Shown piece by piece: positions 6,815-34,850 of a stretch of DNA of 64,000 bases. This DNA comes from Sandaracinus amylolyticus (GTDB taxonomy: Bacteria; Myxococcota_A; Polyangia; Polyangiales; Sandaracinaceae). The position numbers were made by a program, and so were the translations under genes. The stretch spans positions 8,680,001 through 8,744,000 of the forward strand of contig NZ_CP070225.1 of NCBI RefSeq assembly GCF_021631985.1, read 5' to 3'. The notes below the pieces were generated by a model that was not told where the DNA came from, ran no database searches, and saw only the letters and a list, made by a program, of their open reading frames with translations. The stretch's first letter is position 1. The number at the start of each line of letters is the position of its first letter.

Positions 6815-9553
6815 CTACGCGGGGACGCGGCGCAGCGGCACCGACGCGTCGAGCAGGTGCCCGCCCTCTTTGAACACGACCACCCCGCGCAGTCCGAGGT
6901 TGCGCAGCGTCGTCACCGCGACCCGCACTCGGTTCTGCGCGGCGAGCGGCATCACCTTCTCGCCGGGCCATCCCGCCGCGACGAGCTCGTCGATCCCGAC
7001 CGGCTCGCCCGGCGCGCGCAGCCGCGCGCTCGCGAGCGCATCGAGCACACGCGCCATCGTGGGGCGCGATCCGAGATCGACCACCTCGCGGCCCGGAACT
7101 CGGAACCACGCCGCGCCCTCGGCGATCTCGAGCTCGTCCGCGGGGAGGGCGCGACGCAGCATCCGCATCGCGAAGCGCACGTCGTCGCTCTGCGCGGAGA
7201 ACGCCTCGGCCGCGGTGATCGCGTCGCGCGCGCGGGCGATCGCGGCCTCGCTCTCGCCCCGCGCTCCGCGCTCGGCCGCCGCGGCGATCGCGACCTGGGC
7301 GCGATGCAGATCGAGCGTCGCGATCAGCGCGGGATCGCCGACCTCGCGCAGCCGGCGCTCCGCGAGCTCGAGATCGTTCTGCGCCGCGCCCGCGCGTCCG
7401 CTCGATGCGAGCGCCGCGGCGCGCGCGGCGAGGAACACGCCCTCGAGCCGCACGTCGCGCACCTCGGAGAGCACCTCGAGCGCGCGCGAGTACGCGGCGC
7501 GCGCCGCGACGAGCTGACCGCGCTCGTGGTGCACCGCGCCGAGGTAGCCGAGCAGGTGCGCCTCGAACGGGCGATCGCCCACCGTGCGCAGGCACGCGAG
7601 CGCGCGCTCGAGGTGCGCGTGGGCTTCGTCGAGGTGGCCCTGCTCCTGGTCGAGGATCGCGAGGTTGCCGCGCACCAGGCCTTCGAGGCGGAGATCGTCG
7701 CCCGGTGAGCGCGCCAGCGCTTCTTCGTAGTGGGCGCGCGCGCGATCGTGCTCGCCGCGCATCAAGCACAGGTTGCCGAGATCGCGCCGCGCCTGGGCCT
7801 CGGCGTGGGCGTCGCCGAGCGAGATCGCGAGATCGAGCGCGAGCGCGTAGTGCTCCTGCGCGACGTCGAGCTTGCCGCGCCCGTGGTGCACCAGGCCGAG
7901 CGCGGCGTGCGCGCGCTGCTCGGCGCGTCGGTCGTGATCGCGTCGTGCTTCCGAGAGCGCGAGCTCGAGCTCCGAGGTCGCGTCCTCGAAGCGTCCTTGT
8001 GCGAGCCACGCCTCGCCGAGCTCCACGCGCACTGCGCCGCCGCTCAGTCGATCGCGCGCCGACTCGAGATCGCGCACGCACGCGTCCATCTCGCCGCGAT
8101 CGCGCAGCACGCGCGCCCGTGCGACCAGCACGCGCGTGCTGCGCGTCGCATCGGACGCGAGCGCGGGCGACGCGATCACCGCGTCGAGCCGCCCGAGGTG
8201 CGCACCGCCGGGGCCGAGCCGCGCGATCACCGCGTCGAGCGCGAGCAGCAGATCCACGCGCAGCGCGACCGCCTCGGCGTCGTCGCGCGTCGCGATCGAG
8301 TCGTGTGCGGCGAGCATGCTCTCGCGCTCCGCGGCCAACCACGCCAGCGCGGCGCGCGCATGTCGGCCCCTCAGCTCGCCGAGGCGCTTGGTGCCCTCGC
8401 GCCCGAAGAAGCGCGCCATGCGCAGCCCGGCCTCGCGATCCTCGAGCTTCTCGAGGCCGTACTCGCGCACGCTCTCGAGCAGCCGCACCCGGCCCTGGCC
8501 GGCGCGCGCGACCAGCGACTTCTCGCGCAGCGACTGCAGGATCTCGAGCGCGACGCGCTCTTCCTTGGGCTCGCGCGCGATCGTCGCGACCGCGGCGTCG
8601 ACCGAGAACGTGCCGCGATGGAGCGCGAGGCAGGTGAGGGCGCGACGCTCCTCGTCGCTCAGCAGATCCCACGACCAGTCGATCGCACCGCGCAGCGTCG
8701 CCTGGCGCGCCGGCGCGTCGCGCCGGCCGTGTGCGAGCACGTCGAGCCCGCTGAGCCGACCGGTCTCGAGCGATCCCTCGGCCAGACGATCGCGCAGCTC
8801 GATCGCGCCCATCAGCGCGAGGCGCGACGCGGCGAGCTCGAGCGCGAGCGGGATGCCCTCGAGGCGCCGTGCGATCTCGGCGATCGCGACGAGCTCGTCG
8901 TCGCCCTGGGGCACGTAGCCCGGCGCGCGCGCGAGCAGGAGCAGCACCGCGTCGGTGGCCGCGATCGCGGCGCCCGCCGCGCCCTCGGCGGGCACCGAGA
9001 GCGGTGGGATCTCCACCACCTCTTCGCCGCGCACCCGCATCACCTCGCGCGAGGTCACGACGACCGTCAGCGCGCTCGCCTTCGCGCTCCACGGCGCGAC
9101 GGTCGCGATCGCGTGAACGGTGATCTGCTCGAAGTTGTCGAGCACCAGCAGGGTGCGGCCGCGCGCCGCGAGCGCCTCGCCGATGCGCGCTGCGCCGGCC
9201 TGCGCGTCGACGTTGCCGCCGAGCCGAAGATCGATCGCGTTCGCGACGTCGCGCACCACGTCGTCGAGCGAGGTCGCGGCCGAGAGGTCGACGAAGATCG
9301 CGCCCTCCACCAGACCGCGCGTCGCGCTCTCGCGCGCCAGCGCGATCGAGAGGCGCGTCTTGCCGGTGCCCGGCGGCCCGAGCAGCGTGAGCACGCGCGC
9401 ACCGGCCTCGACGCGCGCCGCGAGCGCGTCGATCTCCGCGCGCCGTCCGACGAAACGATCGGGGGGATCGGGGACGCGGAGCTCCGGCCCGCCCGAGCCT
9501 CCTGCGGCCCGTCGCGGGCGTGCCACACCCCCCGCTGAACGGCGGCTCGCCAT
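6815..9553 (-). CDS. AfsR/NB-ARC-like ATPase regulator with TPRs and C-terminal winged helix
   Basis: 912 residues. The P-loop GPPGTGKT lies at about 59-66, followed by a Walker B-like LLVLDNFEQ and the STAND-ATPase segments EGIPLALELAASRL and AIDWSWDLLSDEERRAL. A long helical-repeat region (about 480-790) contains TPR-like units such as HAALGLVHHGRGKLDVAQEHYALAL. The last ~75 residues (PTMARVLDALAS to GGHLLD) resemble the OmpR/AfsR-type winged helix, which in most AfsR/SARP proteins is N-terminal. It is probably a signal-responsive transcription factor. It follows the LDH-Smr pair and precedes NADAR. No strong ribosome site is visible at this start. Confidence 0.82.
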   Translation of the reverse strand: MASRRSAGGVARPRRAAGGSGGPELRVPDPPDRFVGRRAEIDALAARVEAGARVLTLLGPPGTGKTRLSIALARESATRGLVEGAIFVDLSAATSLDDVVRDVANAIDLRLGGNVDAQAGAARIGEALAARGRTLLVLDNFEQITVHAIATVAPWSAKASALTVVVTSREVMRVRGEEVVEIPPLSVPAEGAAGAAIAATDAVLLLLARAPGYVPQGDDELVAIAEIARRLEGIPLALELAASRLALMGAIELRDRLAEGSLETGRLSGLDVLAHGRRDAPARQATLRGAIDWSWDLLSDEERRALTCLALHRGTFSVDAAVATIAREPKEERVALEILQSLREKSLVARAGQGRVRLLESVREYGLEKLEDREAGLRMARFFGREGTKRLGELRGRHARAALAWLAAERESMLAAHDSIATRDDAEAVALRVDLLLALDAVIARLGPGGAHLGRLDAVIASPALASDATRSTRVLVARARVLRDRGEMDACVRDLESARDRLSGGAVRVELGEAWLAQGRFEDATSELELALSEARRDHDRRAEQRAHAALGLVHHGRGKLDVAQEHYALALDLAISLGDAHAEAQARRDLGNLCLMRGEHDRARAHYEEALARSPGDDLRLEGLVRGNLAILDQEQGHLDEAHAHLERALACLRTVGDRPFEAHLLGYLGAVHHERGQLVAARAAYSRALEVLSEVRDVRLEGVFLAARAAALASSGRAGAAQNDLELAERRLREVGDPALIATLDLHRAQVAIAAAAERGARGESEAAIARARDAITAAEAFSAQSDDVRFAMRMLRRALPADELEIAEGAAWFRVPGREVVDLGSRPTMARVLDALASARLRAPGEPVGIDELVAAGWPGEKVMPLAAQNRVRVAVTTLRNLGLRGVVVFKEGGHLLDASVPLRRVPA

Positions 9554-29476: not shown

Positions 29477-30001
29477 CTAGTCGACGAAGATCGTGCCGAC
29501 CATCCCCACCGTCGCGTGGGGCACGCAGTAGTAGCCGTACGCGCCCGCGGGGCTCATCACGAAGCTCGCGGTGTCGCCGCTCCCGTGAGGCGCCGTCGGC
29601 AGCGGCGTGGTGCCCGCCGCGTCGGGGACGAGCGTCCCGCCGATCACGCGTCCGGCCTGCAGCGGGTGCGACGAGAAGTTGCCGACGAAGGTGACCGTGG
29701 TGCCCGCCGTGACCGCGATGCACGCCGGCGAGTACGCCTGCGACTCGTCGCTGAAGTGGATCTCGACGCTCTCGCGATCGGTGAGATCGGCCGCGACGCC
29801 GCGCGAGCAACCGTGGATCGTCGGCCCGGCATCGCTCGCGCCCGCGTCGGGCTCGACCGCCGCGTCGGGCGCGCCGGCATCGCTCGAGTGCGCGTGACCG
29901 GCGTCGGGCGCCGACGCGTCGATCGCATCCGGCGCGACGTCCTCGGGCTCGCCGCACGCTGCGAGCCCGAGCGCGACCACCAGCACGATCGCGCGACGCA
30001 T
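29477..30001 (-). CDS. Cupredoxin (plastocyanin-like) lipoprotein
   Basis: 174 residues. The signal peptide IVLVVALGLAACGEP is followed by a long D/A/G/P-rich linker (residues 20-62) with a His-rich spot (DAGHAHSSDAG). The cupredoxin domain (about 70-174) carries copper ligands in type-1 order: His in NFSSHPLQ, then Cys, His and Met in YYCVPHATVGMVG. It is a likely surface-anchored blue-copper electron carrier. Its ATG shares one base with the stop of the ABC-F gene (TGATG), so the two are probably one transcript. Confidence 0.88.
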   Translation of the reverse strand: MRRAIVLVVALGLAACGEPEDVAPDAIDASAPDAGHAHSSDAGAPDAAVEPDAGASDAGPTIHGCSRGVAADLTDRESVEIHFSDESQAYSPACIAVTAGTTVTFVGNFSSHPLQAGRVIGGTLVPDAAGTTPLPTAPHGSGDTASFVMSPAGAYGYYCVPHATVGMVGTIFVD

Positions 30002-31623
30002 CAGCGCACGCCCGGCGCTTCGTAGCCCGTCTGCGACACGTACTCGACGTACCCGCCGCCGTACACGCGCGGACCGTTCTCGTGCCCGACCTCGAGCACG
30101 CGGTTCGAGAGCGAGCGCAGGAACGAGCGATCGTGCGAGACGAAGATCATCGTGCCCTCGAAGTCCGCGAGCGACTTCGTGAGCATCTCCTTGGTCGCGA
30201 GATCGAGGTGGTTCGTCGGCTCGTCGAGCACCAGGAAATTCGGCGGCTCGTAGAGCATCTTCGCGAGCACGAGCCGCGCCTTCTCACCGCCCGAGAGCAC
30301 GCGGCACTTCTTCTCGACGTCGTCGCCCGAGAAGCCGAACGCGCCGGCGCAGGTGCGCAGCGATCCCAGCGACGCGCGCGGATGCGCGTCCTGCAGCGAG
30401 TCGATCACGGTGCGATCGGGATCGAGCACCTCCATCGCGTGCTGCGCGAAGTACCCGAGCTTCACGCTCGCGCCGACCGTCACCGCGCCCACATCGGGCG
30501 TGGACTCGCCGACGATCAGCTTGAGCAGCGTGCTCTTGCCGGCGCCGTTGATGCCCATCACGCACCACCGCTCGCGACGGCGGATCAGGAAGTCGAAGCC
30601 GCGGTAGATGCGCTTCGATCCGTAGCCCTTCTCGACGTGCTCGAGCTTCACCACGTCGTCGCCCGAGCGCGGCGGCTTGGGGAAGTCGAACTCGATCACG
30701 CGACGGCGCTTGGGCGGCTCGATCTTCTCGATCTTCTCGAGCTTCTTCACGCGCGACTGGACCTGCGCCGCGTGCGAGGCGCGCGCCTTGAAGCGCGCGA
30801 TGAACGCCTCTTCCTTTGCGAGCATCGCCTGCTGCCGCGCGAACTGCGCTTCCTGCTGCTGCGCCGCGATCGCGCGCTGCTGCTCGTAGAAGTCGTAGTT
30901 GCCGGAGTAGGTCGTGAGCTCGCCGCCGTCGATCTCGACGATCTTCGTGACCAGGCGGTTCATGAACTCGCGATCGTGCGAGGTCATGATCAGCGCGCCC
31001 TCGAAGTCGCGCAGGAAGCGCTCGAGCCAGAGGATCGACTCGATGTCGAGGTGGTTCGTGGGCTCGTCGAGGAGCAGCGCGCTGGGCTTCATCAGCAGGA
31101 TGCGCGCGAGCGCGACGCGCATCTTCCAACCGCCCGAGAGCTTGCCGACGTCGCCCGCGATCACCTCGGGCGCGAAGCCGAGGCCGGCGAGGATCTCCTG
31201 GGCGCGCGACTCGAGGCCGTAGCCGTCGAGCTCGTCGAAGCGCGCCTGCACCTCGCCGAAGCGCGCGACGATCTTGTCGAGCTCGTCGGCGCGCGCCGGG
31301 TCCGCCATCGCGGCCTCGAGCTCGTGGAGCTCGTGCGCGACCTTCGAGACCTCGCCGGCGCCCGCCATCGTCTCCTCGAGCACGGTGCGCCCCGACATCT
31401 CGCCGACGTCCTGGGAGAAGTGCCCGATCGTGACGTTCTTCTCGATGACGATGCCGCCCGAGTCGGGCGCCTCGTCCTTCACGACCATCCGGAAGATCGT
31501 CGACTTTCCTGCGCCGTTGGGGCCGACGAGGCCGACCTTCTCGCCCTTGAAGACGCTCATCGAGGCGTCGAGGAAGAGGATCTGGCCGCCGTGCTGCTTG
31601 CTGACCGAGTCGAGACGAATCAC
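30001..31623 (-). CDS. ABC-F family ATPase
   Basis: 540 residues with two ABC cassettes and no membrane segment. Cassette 1 has GPNGAGKST, LSGGWKMRVALARILL and LLLDEPTNHLD; cassette 2 has GINGAGKST, LSGGEKARLVLAKML and LVLDEPTNHLD. The interdomain linker (residues about 240-320) is a charged coiled coil (AAQQQEAQFARQQ, then VKKLEKIEKIEPPKRRR). ABC-F proteins bind ribosomes and either relieve stalls or give antibiotic protection; this one resembles the housekeeping YbiT/EttA-like group. The cupredoxin gene overlaps its stop. Confidence 0.93.
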   Translation of the reverse strand: MIRLDSVSKQHGGQILFLDASMSVFKGEKVGLVGPNGAGKSTIFRMVVKDEAPDSGGIVIEKNVTIGHFSQDVGEMSGRTVLEETMAGAGEVSKVAHELHELEAAMADPARADELDKIVARFGEVQARFDELDGYGLESRAQEILAGLGFAPEVIAGDVGKLSGGWKMRVALARILLMKPSALLLDEPTNHLDIESILWLERFLRDFEGALIMTSHDREFMNRLVTKIVEIDGGELTTYSGNYDFYEQQRAIAAQQQEAQFARQQAMLAKEEAFIARFKARASHAAQVQSRVKKLEKIEKIEPPKRRRVIEFDFPKPPRSGDDVVKLEHVEKGYGSKRIYRGFDFLIRRRERWCVMGINGAGKSTLLKLIVGESTPDVGAVTVGASVKLGYFAQHAMEVLDPDRTVIDSLQDAHPRASLGSLRTCAGAFGFSGDDVEKKCRVLSGGEKARLVLAKMLYEPPNFLVLDEPTNHLDLATKEMLTKSLADFEGTMIFVSHDRSFLRSLSNRVLEVGHENGPRVYGGGYVEYVSQTGYEAPGVR

Positions 31624-31978: not shown

Positions 31979-32704
31979 CTAGGGGCAGAAGACGATCTCC
32001 CAGTCTTCCCCGGCGCAGGCGCGGACCGGGCTCGGGTCTTCGCCGCGCTGGTCGTCGCCCGACCACGCGTAGCCGTCGTCGCACGACTCGAAGTAGAGCG
32101 CGACCTCGCTCTCGGGGTCGTCGCGATCCGGGCTGACGCACGAGACGAGCTCGCCCGACGCGTCCTCGACGCGGCCGACGTCGGGGCACTCGGTGAGCAG
32201 CGCCGGATCGTCGCAGACCAGCGTGTCGCAGTCGGGCCGCGCGAGCGGCGTGATGCGCATCGTGAGGTTGTGCGCGTCGACGTGGCTGATGTTGTACCAG
32301 TCGAAGTCGTGGAAGTCGGTGTTGAACGTGAGCTCCGCGAGCGTGTGGCGCTCGGGGCCCGGATCGTCACCGAGGAACCCCCAGTAGCGCTTCGCGGAGA
32401 GCTCTTCCTCCGCGCTGCCGATGTCGCGGCACGCGATGGTGCCGGGCGCGATCGTCGCGCCCTCGATGTCGCTTCCGCGCATCTCGAGCATTCTTGAACA
32501 ACCGTTCACGAACACGAGCGTGGTGCGTCCGTCGCCGTCGACCGCGCAGTCCTGCTCGACCGGCGCCGCGTCGGTGTCGCTCGGCTGCGCGTCGCGCGTG
32601 CTCGGCCGCGCGTCGTGCGCCACCCCGGCATCGCCCTCGCTCGCCGGAGGGCTGCCGCAGCCGAGCAGGCCCAGAAGCGCGCCGATCACCGCGATTCTCG
32701 TCAT
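31979..32704 (-). CDS. Thaumatin-like lipoprotein
   Basis: 241 residues. The signal peptide AVIGALLGLLGCGSPP gives lipidated Cys16, followed by a D/A/P/S linker to about 50. The domain has the thaumatin start (TTLVFVNGCSRMLEM) and its core signature: AELTFN at 123-128 and DWYNISHVDAHNLTMRITP (key residues Y-x-I-S-x-V-D-x-x-N-x-x-M, 137-149). Multiple Cys follow. Thaumatin-like proteins bind or hydrolyse beta-1,3-glucans and attack fungi. It is the last gene of the three-gene operon; its ATG overlaps the GH128 stop by 4 bp and is preceded by GAGGAG. Confidence 0.85.
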   Translation of the reverse strand: MTRIAVIGALLGLLGCGSPPASEGDAGVAHDARPSTRDAQPSDTDAAPVEQDCAVDGDGRTTLVFVNGCSRMLEMRGSDIEGATIAPGTIACRDIGSAEEELSAKRYWGFLGDDPGPERHTLAELTFNTDFHDFDWYNISHVDAHNLTMRITPLARPDCDTLVCDDPALLTECPDVGRVEDASGELVSCVSPDRDDPESEVALYFESCDDGYAWSGDDQRGEDPSPVRACAGEDWEIVFCP

Positions 32705-33591
32705 TCCATCGCTCCTCGGTCGCAGTCGGGGGAGGCGGGCGCCTCGACGTAGGCGCGCCCGAGCGCGGTCAGCTCGCCGTCGCCGCCCAGCAGATCGACG
32801 TGGTCGATCCCCTCGAAGCGCCCGGAGAACCACGCGTAGCGCTCGATGCGCGGATCGCTCTCGAGGAACGCGACCGCGTCCTCGAGGAACGCGATCTGAT
32901 CGTCGACGTCCGCGGCGTCGGTGCACGCGAACTCGGTGAGCCACAGCGGCTGCGTGAAGCGCTCCTCGTACTGGCGGACGTGATCGATCAGCCAGCGCGC
33001 CTGGTCCTCGCCCTCGGGATGACAGCCCACGTAGATGTGGATCGCGATGCGATCGACGCGGCAGTCGCGGCACGCGGCGAAGAAGTCTTCGAGGTAGCGG
33101 AACGGATCGGTGTCCTGACAGTCGCCGCCGCAGTAGTTCACCGCGGGCGAGACCAGGAGCAGGCCGCGCTCGTCGGCGATCCGCTCGACCTCGGGCCACA
33201 GCGCTGCGGCCTCTGCGGCCGACAGGTTCGCCTGCGATCCGAAGTTCGGCTCGTTGAAGCCGAGCAGCGTCGTCGCGCCCTCGGGGATCTCGTCGATGTG
33301 GGTCGCGGCCTCGAAGTCGCGGCCCCACACCATCGGCACGTACTCGACGCCCGCCGCGCGATAGCTTCCGTCGCGCAGCGCTTCGTCGGGCCGGTGGTGC
33401 CAGTTGTACCACCACGAGATCGCGGGCCGGAGCGCTGCGAAGTCGGCGAGCGAGTGGTGCCCGTACGCGACGCCGCGTTTGCATCCGCGCACCACCGGCG
33501 GGGTGCTGGCGTCGTCACGCACGTCGTCGCCCGGCGTGCCCTCGCACGCGCAGCCGACGATCAGCAGCGCCCACACGAAGCGCGCGCTCAT
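32701..33591 (-). CDS. GH128-type glycoside hydrolase lipoprotein (beta-1,3-glucanase)
   Basis: 296 residues with a short lipoprotein signal (FVWALLIVGCACEG). The TIM-barrel matches the Asl1/GH128 catalytic core: GVAYG at strand 1, WWYNW near 60, VPMVWG, then the acid/base Glu114 in LLGFNEPN and the nucleophile Glu220 in LWLTEFACT, each at the expected strand ends. Known GH128 members hydrolyse beta-1,3-glucan. It is translationally coupled on both sides (ATGA with the TOS1-like gene upstream and the thaumatin gene downstream). A cell-surface glucanase acting on fungal walls is the most likely role. Confidence 0.88.
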   Translation of the reverse strand: MSARFVWALLIVGCACEGTPGDDVRDDASTPPVVRGCKRGVAYGHHSLADFAALRPAISWWYNWHHRPDEALRDGSYRAAGVEYVPMVWGRDFEAATHIDEIPEGATTLLGFNEPNFGSQANLSAAEAAALWPEVERIADERGLLLVSPAVNYCGGDCQDTDPFRYLEDFFAACRDCRVDRIAIHIYVGCHPEGEDQARWLIDHVRQYEERFTQPLWLTEFACTDAADVDDQIAFLEDAVAFLESDPRIERYAWFSGRFEGIDHVDLLGGDGELTALGRAYVEAPASPDCDRGAME

Positions 33592-34850
33592 CGCGGCAGC
33601 CGCAGATCGAGGAGGCCGCGGACCACTCCGTCGTCGATCTCGGCGGGGAGCGCGGGCAGCAGCGGCGCCGCCGCCGCGGGGATCTCCGACGGATGCACGA
33701 TCGCGAGCTGCACGGTCCGCGACGTCTCGTCGAGCAGCACGAGGAAGTAGCGATAGCCCTCCGCAGGCCGCCGGAACGCGGCGCCCGGACCGCGCTCGGG
33801 GCTCGCGACCGCGCCTGCCGCGGCCTCGGCGATCGTGCTCTTGTCGATGAGATCGACCTCGGGCCCGAGGCGCGACACGTCGCAGCGCGCACCGCACGGT
33901 CCTTCGCCGACGTAGCCGCCGTAGCCGAAGAAGTTCGTGCTGAAGACGTCGAGGTTCCGGTACTCGTTGTTGTCGTTGACGACCTCGAACACGTTGAACT
34001 GCCCGCAGCCGTCGCCGAGCCACCACTCCGCGGGGTTCCGCGCGTAGCACTGGCAGCTCGAGAACGCGCCGGCGCGCGCGAGCTCGCCGAGGCTCAGGCC
34101 GATCCACGGTGCGTCGTACCAGTTGCCTCCCGGGCCATCGGAGCACGGCGTGCCTGCTTCGGGATCCCCGACGTGCGGCATGCGCGCGAGCAGCACGAAG
34201 AGCTTCGATCCGGCCCAGCCGTGGTGACGTCCTTCGCCGTTGCAGAAGGGCTCGCTGCCGGGCCCACACGGGAACGGGACGTCGGTCGCGAGATCGACCA
34301 GGCACTCGGTGCCGATCGCGCCGTCGAAGCCCTCGGACTCGGTGTCGTTGCCGCGGAACGAGAGGCCGCGCGGGCTCGACGCGGTGCGCCGATCCCACGC
34401 CGACACCAGCGACCATCCCGCGGCGCTCGGCTGGTAGACGGCGAGCTGCGCGACGTTCATCGGGCCGCGCAGCGTGAGCACGAGGTCTTCGTTCCACGGG
34501 GTGAGCCGATCGCTCGTCACCTCGTGCCGCGCCATGCAGCAGCCGTTCGTGTCGTACGCGTCGCAGGGGCCGACGTCGGGATCGCGCACGCTCGGGTACC
34601 AACCGGTCGCGCCGATCTGTTGGAACGTGATCGTCCCGCCGTGCGAGGGCGGATCGAGCACCGGGAGATCGGGAGGCCCGAGGCCGCCATCGAGGCTCGG
34701 GGGCGGCGCCGCGTCGACACCGATCACGCGTGCGTCGCGTGTCGCGGCGTCGTGTCCGATGCCGCCGTCGAGCTCGCTCGTGGGCCGCTCGTTCGAGCAG
34801 CCCAAGGCGATCATCGCGATCGCGAGAATCGAGGTCCGTCGATCGGACAT
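33588..34850 (-). CDS. TOS1-like (DUF2403/DUF2401) lipoprotein
   Basis: 420 residues, lipidated Cys18 (ILAIAMIALGCSNE), then a D/G/P linker to about 70. Residues 75-155 resemble DUF2403 (WNEDLVLTLRGPMNVAQLAVYQP). Residues 165-320 carry the DUF2401 pattern: FDGAIGTE, a KLFVLLARMPHV strand, APWIGLSLGEL, SCQCY (265-269) and GCGQFNVFEVVNDNNE (281-296). Fungal TOS1 is a wall-linked protein related to beta-1,3-glucan metabolism. This domain pair is mainly known from fungi; in this bacterial lipoprotein it heads an operon with a GH128 glucanase and a thaumatin-like protein. The family call comes from motif recall, not a search. Confidence 0.72.
   Translation of the reverse strand: MSDRRTSILAIAMIALGCSNERPTSELDGGIGHDAATRDARVIGVDAAPPPSLDGGLGPPDLPVLDPPSHGGTITFQQIGATGWYPSVRDPDVGPCDAYDTNGCCMARHEVTSDRLTPWNEDLVLTLRGPMNVAQLAVYQPSAAGWSLVSAWDRRTASSPRGLSFRGNDTESEGFDGAIGTECLVDLATDVPFPCGPGSEPFCNGEGRHHGWAGSKLFVLLARMPHVGDPEAGTPCSDGPGGNWYDAPWIGLSLGELARAGAFSSCQCYARNPAEWWLGDGCGQFNVFEVVNDNNEYRNLDVFSTNFFGYGGYVGEGPCGARCDVSRLGPEVDLIDKSTIAEAAAGAVASPERGPGAAFRRPAEGYRYFLVLLDETSRTVQLAIVHPSEIPAAAAPLLPALPAEIDDGVVRGLLDLRLPR

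Follow-up and report, generated by a model that had tools for sequence, protein, structure and literature searches.

The systems closest to the one described here are known as separate families. Proteins of the TOS1/YJL171C family are treated as fungal or oomycete in passages of the literature (here and below, cited papers are represented by excerpts). ScGH128_II (PDB 6uax), a member of GH128 subgroup II, and the curdlan-specific GH128 enzyme CBM6E (PDB 8j3x) were studied as single enzymes (PMC10956234), and thaumatin-like proteins (TLPs, GH152) are represented by plant and other solved structures. The nearest parallel in function is the myxobacterial cell-surface enzyme GluM, a beta-1,6-glucanase that Corallococcus carries in its outer membrane and employs when preying on fungi (PMC10800785). 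We identified members of the first three families side by side in a 64,000-nucleotide stretch of the Sandaracinus amylolyticus genome (contig NZ_CP070225.1; the whole stretch is called the window), where a TOS1-like gene (A), a GH128 gene (B) and a thaumatin-like gene (C) follow one another on the minus strand. On balance we favour the view that A, B and C form one translationally coupled operon, whose three lipoproteins would act jointly on extracellular beta-1,3-glucan, with the walls of fungi (or oomycetes) as its most likely source. Such a set would differ from GluM, a single beta-barrel enzyme, both in its beta-1,3 specificity and in being made of several lipoproteins.

33588-34850, minus strand: gene A, TOS1-like lipoprotein of 420 residues (P0001; open reading frame list and Pfam)
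32701-33591, minus strand: gene B, GH128 (subgroup II-like) lipoprotein of 296 residues (P0002; open reading frame list and Pfam)
31979-32704, minus strand: gene C, thaumatin-like lipoprotein of 241 residues (P0003; open reading frame list and Pfam)
33588-33591, minus strand: A/B junction, 4-bp overlap ATGA
32701-32704, minus strand: B/C junction, 4-bp overlap ATGA
34954-34923, minus strand: terminator-like hairpin of 14 pairs (11 G-C) with a T-rich tail, between the end of the upstream open reading frame (34971) and gene A

The new part is not the families, which were already known, but the conserved module of lipoproteins, together with the active-site variation that occurs naturally among its TOS1-like proteins. 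Among the matches listed for open-licence literature, no title or abstract start described such a bacterial gene set. The paper on CBM6E does not contain the word "thaumatin", and its excerpts mention no TOS1-like or thaumatin-like partner (PMC10956234); a term search of the main text of a 2025 survey of myxobacterial carbohydrate enzymes returned no GH128, GH152, GH64 or thaumatin (PMC12093494).

An initial annotation of the window, made from the sequence alone, had described three minus-strand genes overlapping by 4 bp, and both the coordinates and the ATGA at each junction were confirmed. For genes B and C, the mechanical list of open reading frames also contains longer frames with earlier starts. 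G+C content at third codon positions is 0.90-0.93 across the three genes, and the ratios of nonsynonymous to synonymous substitution rates (dN/dS) relative to the congener G177 (0.15 for A, 0.22 for B and 0.40 for C) indicate that all three are under purifying selection. The terminator proposed upstream of A corresponds to the hairpin listed above; because shuffled sequences contain a mean of 0.8 terminator-like sites per 4 kb, the scan is weak alone, and the position of the hairpin fits. A search for a sigma-70-type promoter at the locus gave no match.

The lipoprotein signals reported for all three products were also recovered. By eye, the N-termini show lipobox-like sequences ending in ...IALGC18 (A), ...LIVGC14 (B) and ...GLLGC16 (C), in which a hydrophobic stretch runs up to the cysteine and is followed by a linker that is rich in small, polar and acidic residues and is short in B. 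All three (as locus L121) also pass a home-made lipobox pattern. Across the wider set of genes described below, the script detected a lipobox in 49 of 62 TOS1-like, 29 of 35 GH128, seven of nine TLP and four of four GH64 genes, the last counted at 200 bits or more. The products are predicted lipoproteins that may be exposed at the surface of the outer membrane. In the mechanism we propose, A, B and C would be made together by co-translation from what would be a joint transcript, then exported, lipidated and placed on the outer membrane; B would cut the beta-1,3-glucan chain outside the cell, and A, probably with C, would hold the chain or the prey wall.

32749-33474, minus strand: PF11790 catalytic core of B, residues 40-281 (Pfam 193.3 bits, cut-off 21)

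B covers the PF11790 profile completely (positions 1-237 of 237) and is most likely a retaining endo-beta-1,3-glucanase of GH128 subgroup II. Its catalytic domain aligned with 6uax, from Sorangium cellulosum, at 387 bits (66% identity over 254 residues), and it also matches 8j3x over the catalytic domain. In CBM6E, N167, residue 168, H245 and E272 contact the -1 subsite, and Y247 is catalytic together with the glutamates E168 and E272 (PMC10956234). The corresponding subsite and catalytic positions of B are occupied by N113, E114, H185, Y187 and E220, which include both catalytic glutamates (E114 in N-E-P and E220 in W-x-x-E). These glutamates are kept in 34 of the 35 GH128 hits that we recovered, B included. 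The exception is the GH128 protein of Enhygromyxa salina (L008:6817-7833), which reads N-Q-P instead of N-E-P. This is the change made in E168Q, the "inactive mutant" of CBM6E, for which residual activity was granted to be possible (PMC10956234); since N-Q-P occurs in one genome only, a sequencing error is possible.

The solved enzyme can itself be placed in this context. Locus L093 (genome G380) carries a gene whose product is 99.6% identical to 6uax over 257 residues, and this gene follows a TOS1-like gene of the same orientation, with 47 nucleotides between the domain edges. This adjacency indicates that the enzyme of known structure belongs to the module, which gives it a likely partner. 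A second, short open frame in this locus (L093:16383-16613) shows 100% identity to the final 44 residues of the 6uax segment and lies some 5 kb away from the complete GH128 gene; it represents either a partial duplication or an assembly effect.

34428-34634, minus strand: PF10290 (YJL171C/Tos1 N-terminal) in A, residues 73-141 (Pfam 39.2 bits, cut-off 27)
33951-34238, minus strand: PF10287 (YJL171C/Tos1 C-terminal) in A, residues 205-300 (Pfam 28.5 bits, cut-off 27)
33984-34001, minus strand: Q-F-N-V-F-E at residues 284-289 of A, against the profile-preferred E-x-D-x-x-E (alignment and variant scoring)

A shares with the TOS1/YJL171C family both Pfam domains in the same order and the glutamate that ends the motif. 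It differs in being a bacterial lipoprotein, in its operon with GH128 and thaumatin-like genes, and in the motif itself, where Q284 replaces glutamate and N286 replaces aspartate and only E289 is kept. To read the preference of the Pfam profile, we scored a segment of A with single and paired substitutions: Q284E gained 2.6 bits, N286D 2.8 and both together 5.4, and losses were recorded for Q284A (0.8), N286A (1.7), E289Q (2.9) and E289A (3.9). ExDxxE is a GH16 signature (PMC4176579). With Q284 and N286 in place of E and D, A is likelier to be a binder than an enzyme; the first glutamate of the signature is presumably the nucleophile. A should probably be regarded as a TOS1-family homologue that has lost catalysis, and not be filed as a TOS1-type glucanase; it would serve as the glucan-binding arm of the set. 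In the first set of nine relatives, PF10287 was found in all nine and PF10290 in eight at E <= 0.01, not all of them over the cut-off; in locus L010, for example, PF10287 reaches 26.4 bits. No relative of A was found in the PDB by sequence, even with a profile at E <= 10, and a search of NCBIfam gave no hits.

The altered motif recurs among relatives. We collected 62 TOS1-like genes from 46 Myxococcota genomes, the window's included, and these divide into 32 with QNE and 30 with ENE; EDE is not represented. These counts bear on whether A might itself be an active glucanase, with asparagine serving for aspartate and with the role of the glutamate taken over in Q clades by some other residue or by a different mechanism. 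The last glutamate is kept in 62 of 62, the asparagine is invariant and the first glutamate is present in 30, as an enzyme might require, yet that glutamate is missing in the other 32, A included. The purifying selection on A (dN/dS 0.15) would agree with activity and fits a binder equally well. We regard an active A as quite improbable, and retain its assignment as a putative binder.

A tree was built from 60 of these sequences, the two of 300 residues or fewer being left out. It requires two changes of the Q/E label. Its three main groups are the window's clade, whose 14 sequences all have Q, a second Q group with 16 members, and a clade of 28 E sequences. Two E sequences, from L078 and L116, lie beside the second Q group. 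Because the root was set at the midpoint and long branches meet, the tree does not fix the direction of the Q/E change. Five loci (L088, L090, L091, L092 and L107) carry Q and E copies within about 3 kb of one another, with GH128 nearby. These natural active-site variants offer a means of testing what TOS1 does, and they extend to bacteria a family that the literature excerpts assign to fungi or oomycetes.

A recurrent orphan lipoprotein (X; 452-522 residues as called) accompanies the TOS1-like genes at each of the 16 loci in the second Q group and at several of the E loci. Of the 57 loci searched, 24 contain a homologue, and the total is 25 frames because L119 has two. The protein has no match in Pfam and none better than E 0.7 in the PDB. 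Examples are:

L091:8726-10084, minus strand: orphan lipoprotein
L095:7402-8811, plus strand: orphan lipoprotein
L080:11032-12474, minus strand: orphan lipoprotein
L087:10582-12150, minus strand: orphan lipoprotein

A wider proposal, which we put forward tentatively and with more doubt than belief, is that large-genome Myxococcota carry an unrecognised lipid-anchored module for capturing and cutting beta-1,3-glucan, built around TOS1-like proteins. The QNE forms, A among them, would be pseudoenzymes that grip the prey wall, dividing labour between enzyme and lectin at the cell surface, and the orphan lipoprotein would be a partner.

32129-32350, minus strand: best PF00314 stretch of C, residues 119-192 (Pfam 44.2 bits, cut-off 27.4)

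The best PF00314 stretch in C spans profile positions 78-146 of 209 only. The C-terminal half of the protein matches PDB 7p22 and plant TLPs, and plant proteins make up most of the thaumatin-like PDB entries that it matches, with one other besides. The acidic cleft of thaumatin-like proteins is formed by the REDDD motif, of which the arginine was not placed in C. Residues E124, D143 and D217/D218 agree with the plant chains 2ahn and 4jru, 7p22 differs at two of these positions, and all are kept in nine of nine myxobacterial TLPs. C differs from the described proteins in being bacterial with a lipobox and in carrying N138 at the aspartate of Y-D-[IV]-S, where three aligned PDB chains have D; asparagine occupies this position in eight of the nine myxobacterial TLPs, C included. 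We suggest that C is a thaumatin-like glucan binder or a weak glucanase. The family calls of the initial annotation (TOS1-like, GH128 and thaumatin-like) all held, since PF10287, PF10290, PF11790 and PF00314 each scored over its cut-off, and no product was assigned to an unrelated family.

The three families are also linked beyond the window. We searched 57 loci with a GH128 profile, a TLP profile and one GH64 protein, and partner hits below 100 bits were excluded from the neighbourhood count for the 62 genes. GH128, TLP or GH64 genes lie within 5 kb of 41 of these (36 GH128, 9 TLP and 4 GH64), and a partner stands on the same strand within 300 nucleotides of the domain edge in 31. The TLP profile missed a thaumatin-like gene in L013 that Pfam detects. 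The 62 do not include the first TOS1 copy of genome G530 (L012:7700-9103, Nannocystis pusilla), which is split between two frames, perhaps by a sequencing error, and still has GH128 downstream. In 20 TOS1-bearing genomes, 23 of 27 strong GH128 genes had a TOS1-like gene no more than 5 kb away, far above the 0.05 expected from random placement (eight of the 35 GH128 hits, all at 50 bits or less, are not among the 27). Because the presence of TOS1-like genes was the criterion for choosing these genomes, and many of them are closely related, the figures show linkage and should not be read as a count of independent gains. For the four strong GH128 genes standing apart, the surrounding 18-19 kb contained no match to TOS1, TLP or GH64.

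The expectation of a conserved three-gene order in Myxococcota held in part: the congener G177 has the same order as the window and the gene set recurs, but the order varies. In Enhygromyxa salina SWB007 (L008) the genes run TLP-GH128-TOS1 on one strand, the reverse of the window's order, and starts at 6817 (ATG) and 7830 (GTG) give 4-bp overlaps at both junctions, although later starts are possible. The GH128 gene of the Nannocystis loci L009 and L011 can start about 15 nucleotides after the TOS1-like gene. In L013 the TOS1-like gene is followed by GH64 (PF16483, 125 bits) and then by GH128, and a thaumatin-like gene lies about 4.5 kb from the TOS1-like gene; a CBM6 match in the GH128 protein falls slightly short of its cut-off (26.5 bits, cut-off 28.9). 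Taken together, the arrangements comprise TOS1-GH128-TLP and its reverse, TOS1-GH128, TOS1-GH64-GH128, GH128-TOS1-GH64, TLP-TOS1 and convergent pairs. This variety indicates that gene content has been held together and not merely inherited as a block. The gene set and not its order is conserved, GH64, a further beta-1,3-glucan family, also joins it, and a fixed three-gene order was rejected as a signature.

The module has a patchy distribution. A single-protein scan with A covered genome contigs of 84,980 species by exact peptide patterns, and so reaches close relatives only; it returned eight relatives with 58-71% identity over the best segment, from three Nannocystis, Enhygromyxa, a Labilithrix metagenome-assembled genome (MAG) and three other MAGs. 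A TOS1-like profile built from nine relatives matched 50 of the 385 nearest genomes, 46 of them strongly with the window's own included, and three of 282 genomes in an even sample of the phylum, one weakly. The genomes with weak matches (G258, G426, G513, G516) were excluded, as was the second, weak hit in G378. In the same even sample, A as query matched three genomes (one a weak 70-residue match) and C three (one weak); PF10287, with two, was rejected as too insensitive a query. PF10290 matched two of ten family genomes, and no match was found in plasmids. This distribution bears on the idea that the lipoproteins remodel or recognise a glycan of the bacterium itself, such as matrix or spore coat, instead of prey. 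Myxobacterial lineages are social, fruiting bacteria, and lipobox-like starts in all three genes would suit such a role, but presence in three of 282 even-sample genomes and strongly in 46 of 385 nearest relatives is unlike a core developmental trait, and we consider the idea far-fetched.

Several results weigh against a joint glucan-directed module with A as a binder that has lost its active site. The structure model of A is poor (mean predicted local distance difference test score, pLDDT, 53.6; below 50 at model residues 194-303, motif included), and a model of C was discarded at pLDDT 33. Foldseek returned no match for the model of A at E <= 0.001. VIA gave a best Z of 4.6, for the legume lectin 3ujo and a TerD protein, and 4.0 for a GH131 beta-glucanase, with GH16 absent among the matches listed; hhalign aligned the TOS1-like profile with myxobacterial GH16 at 6.7% probability, leaving the motif unaligned. 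With so weak a model and such fold searches, the GH16-like, circularly permuted jelly-roll fold in which Q and N would mark a lost active site is only putative for A. None of the three partners occurs within 5 kb of 21 of the 62 TOS1-like genes; for seven of these 21 the sequence on one side ends before 5 kb is reached. Two of ten relatives' genomes have no GH128 at all. The counts do not represent independent events, since many of the loci belong to closely related genomes. Finally, beta-1,3-glucan is also found in algae, plants (callose) and bacteria (curdlan).

This last point leads to the target. Beta-1,3-glucan is supported by the families and the gene context, and the fungal or oomycete wall would be its likely source because of the families involved; laminarin, curdlan or callose are possible targets. 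The same module could alternatively serve general beta-1,3-glucan nutrition, on laminarin, curdlan, callose or debris, with no special tie to live fungi. One host, Enhygromyxa salina, is marine, in keeping with such a diet, whereas the S. amylolyticus genome contains two GH18 genes and the PDB matches of C are chiefly plant proteins, which fit it less well. The curdlan specificity of CBM6E, a relative of B, would favour this nutritional role (PMC10956234), and the fungal or oomycete treatment of TOS1 in the literature excerpts would not. We judge it unlikely, and continue to favour cooperation of A, B and C on fungal or oomycete walls, which may serve predation or saprotrophy. The initial annotation had proposed a system attacking or gripping fungal beta-1,3-glucan; the glucan families and their linkage agree with a beta-1,3-glucan target, but A is probably not a glucanase, and a fungal source would be suggested by the families involved. 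Few enzymes are known by which myxobacteria open the walls of eukaryotic prey, and the module provides a defined, recurring gene set.

Other features were noted at individual loci. At L010 the neighbourhood contains no GH128, TLP or GH64 gene, and the genome has no GH128 match; the TOS1-like gene of this locus is followed by genes for a DUF1587/1595/1592/1588/1585 protein and a DUF1552 protein, which are not glucanases (L010:9034-12251). The L007 locus ends 272 bases after the TOS1-like gene. The genome containing the window (10.96 Mb, two contigs) carries one GH16 gene elsewhere, as it does the two GH18 genes. Downstream of the operon, an ABC-F-like gene, named by eye (window 30001-31623), separates it from a gene on the same strand as the operon for a small lipoprotein, cupredoxin-like (blue-copper type) by eye (window 29477-30001, minus strand).

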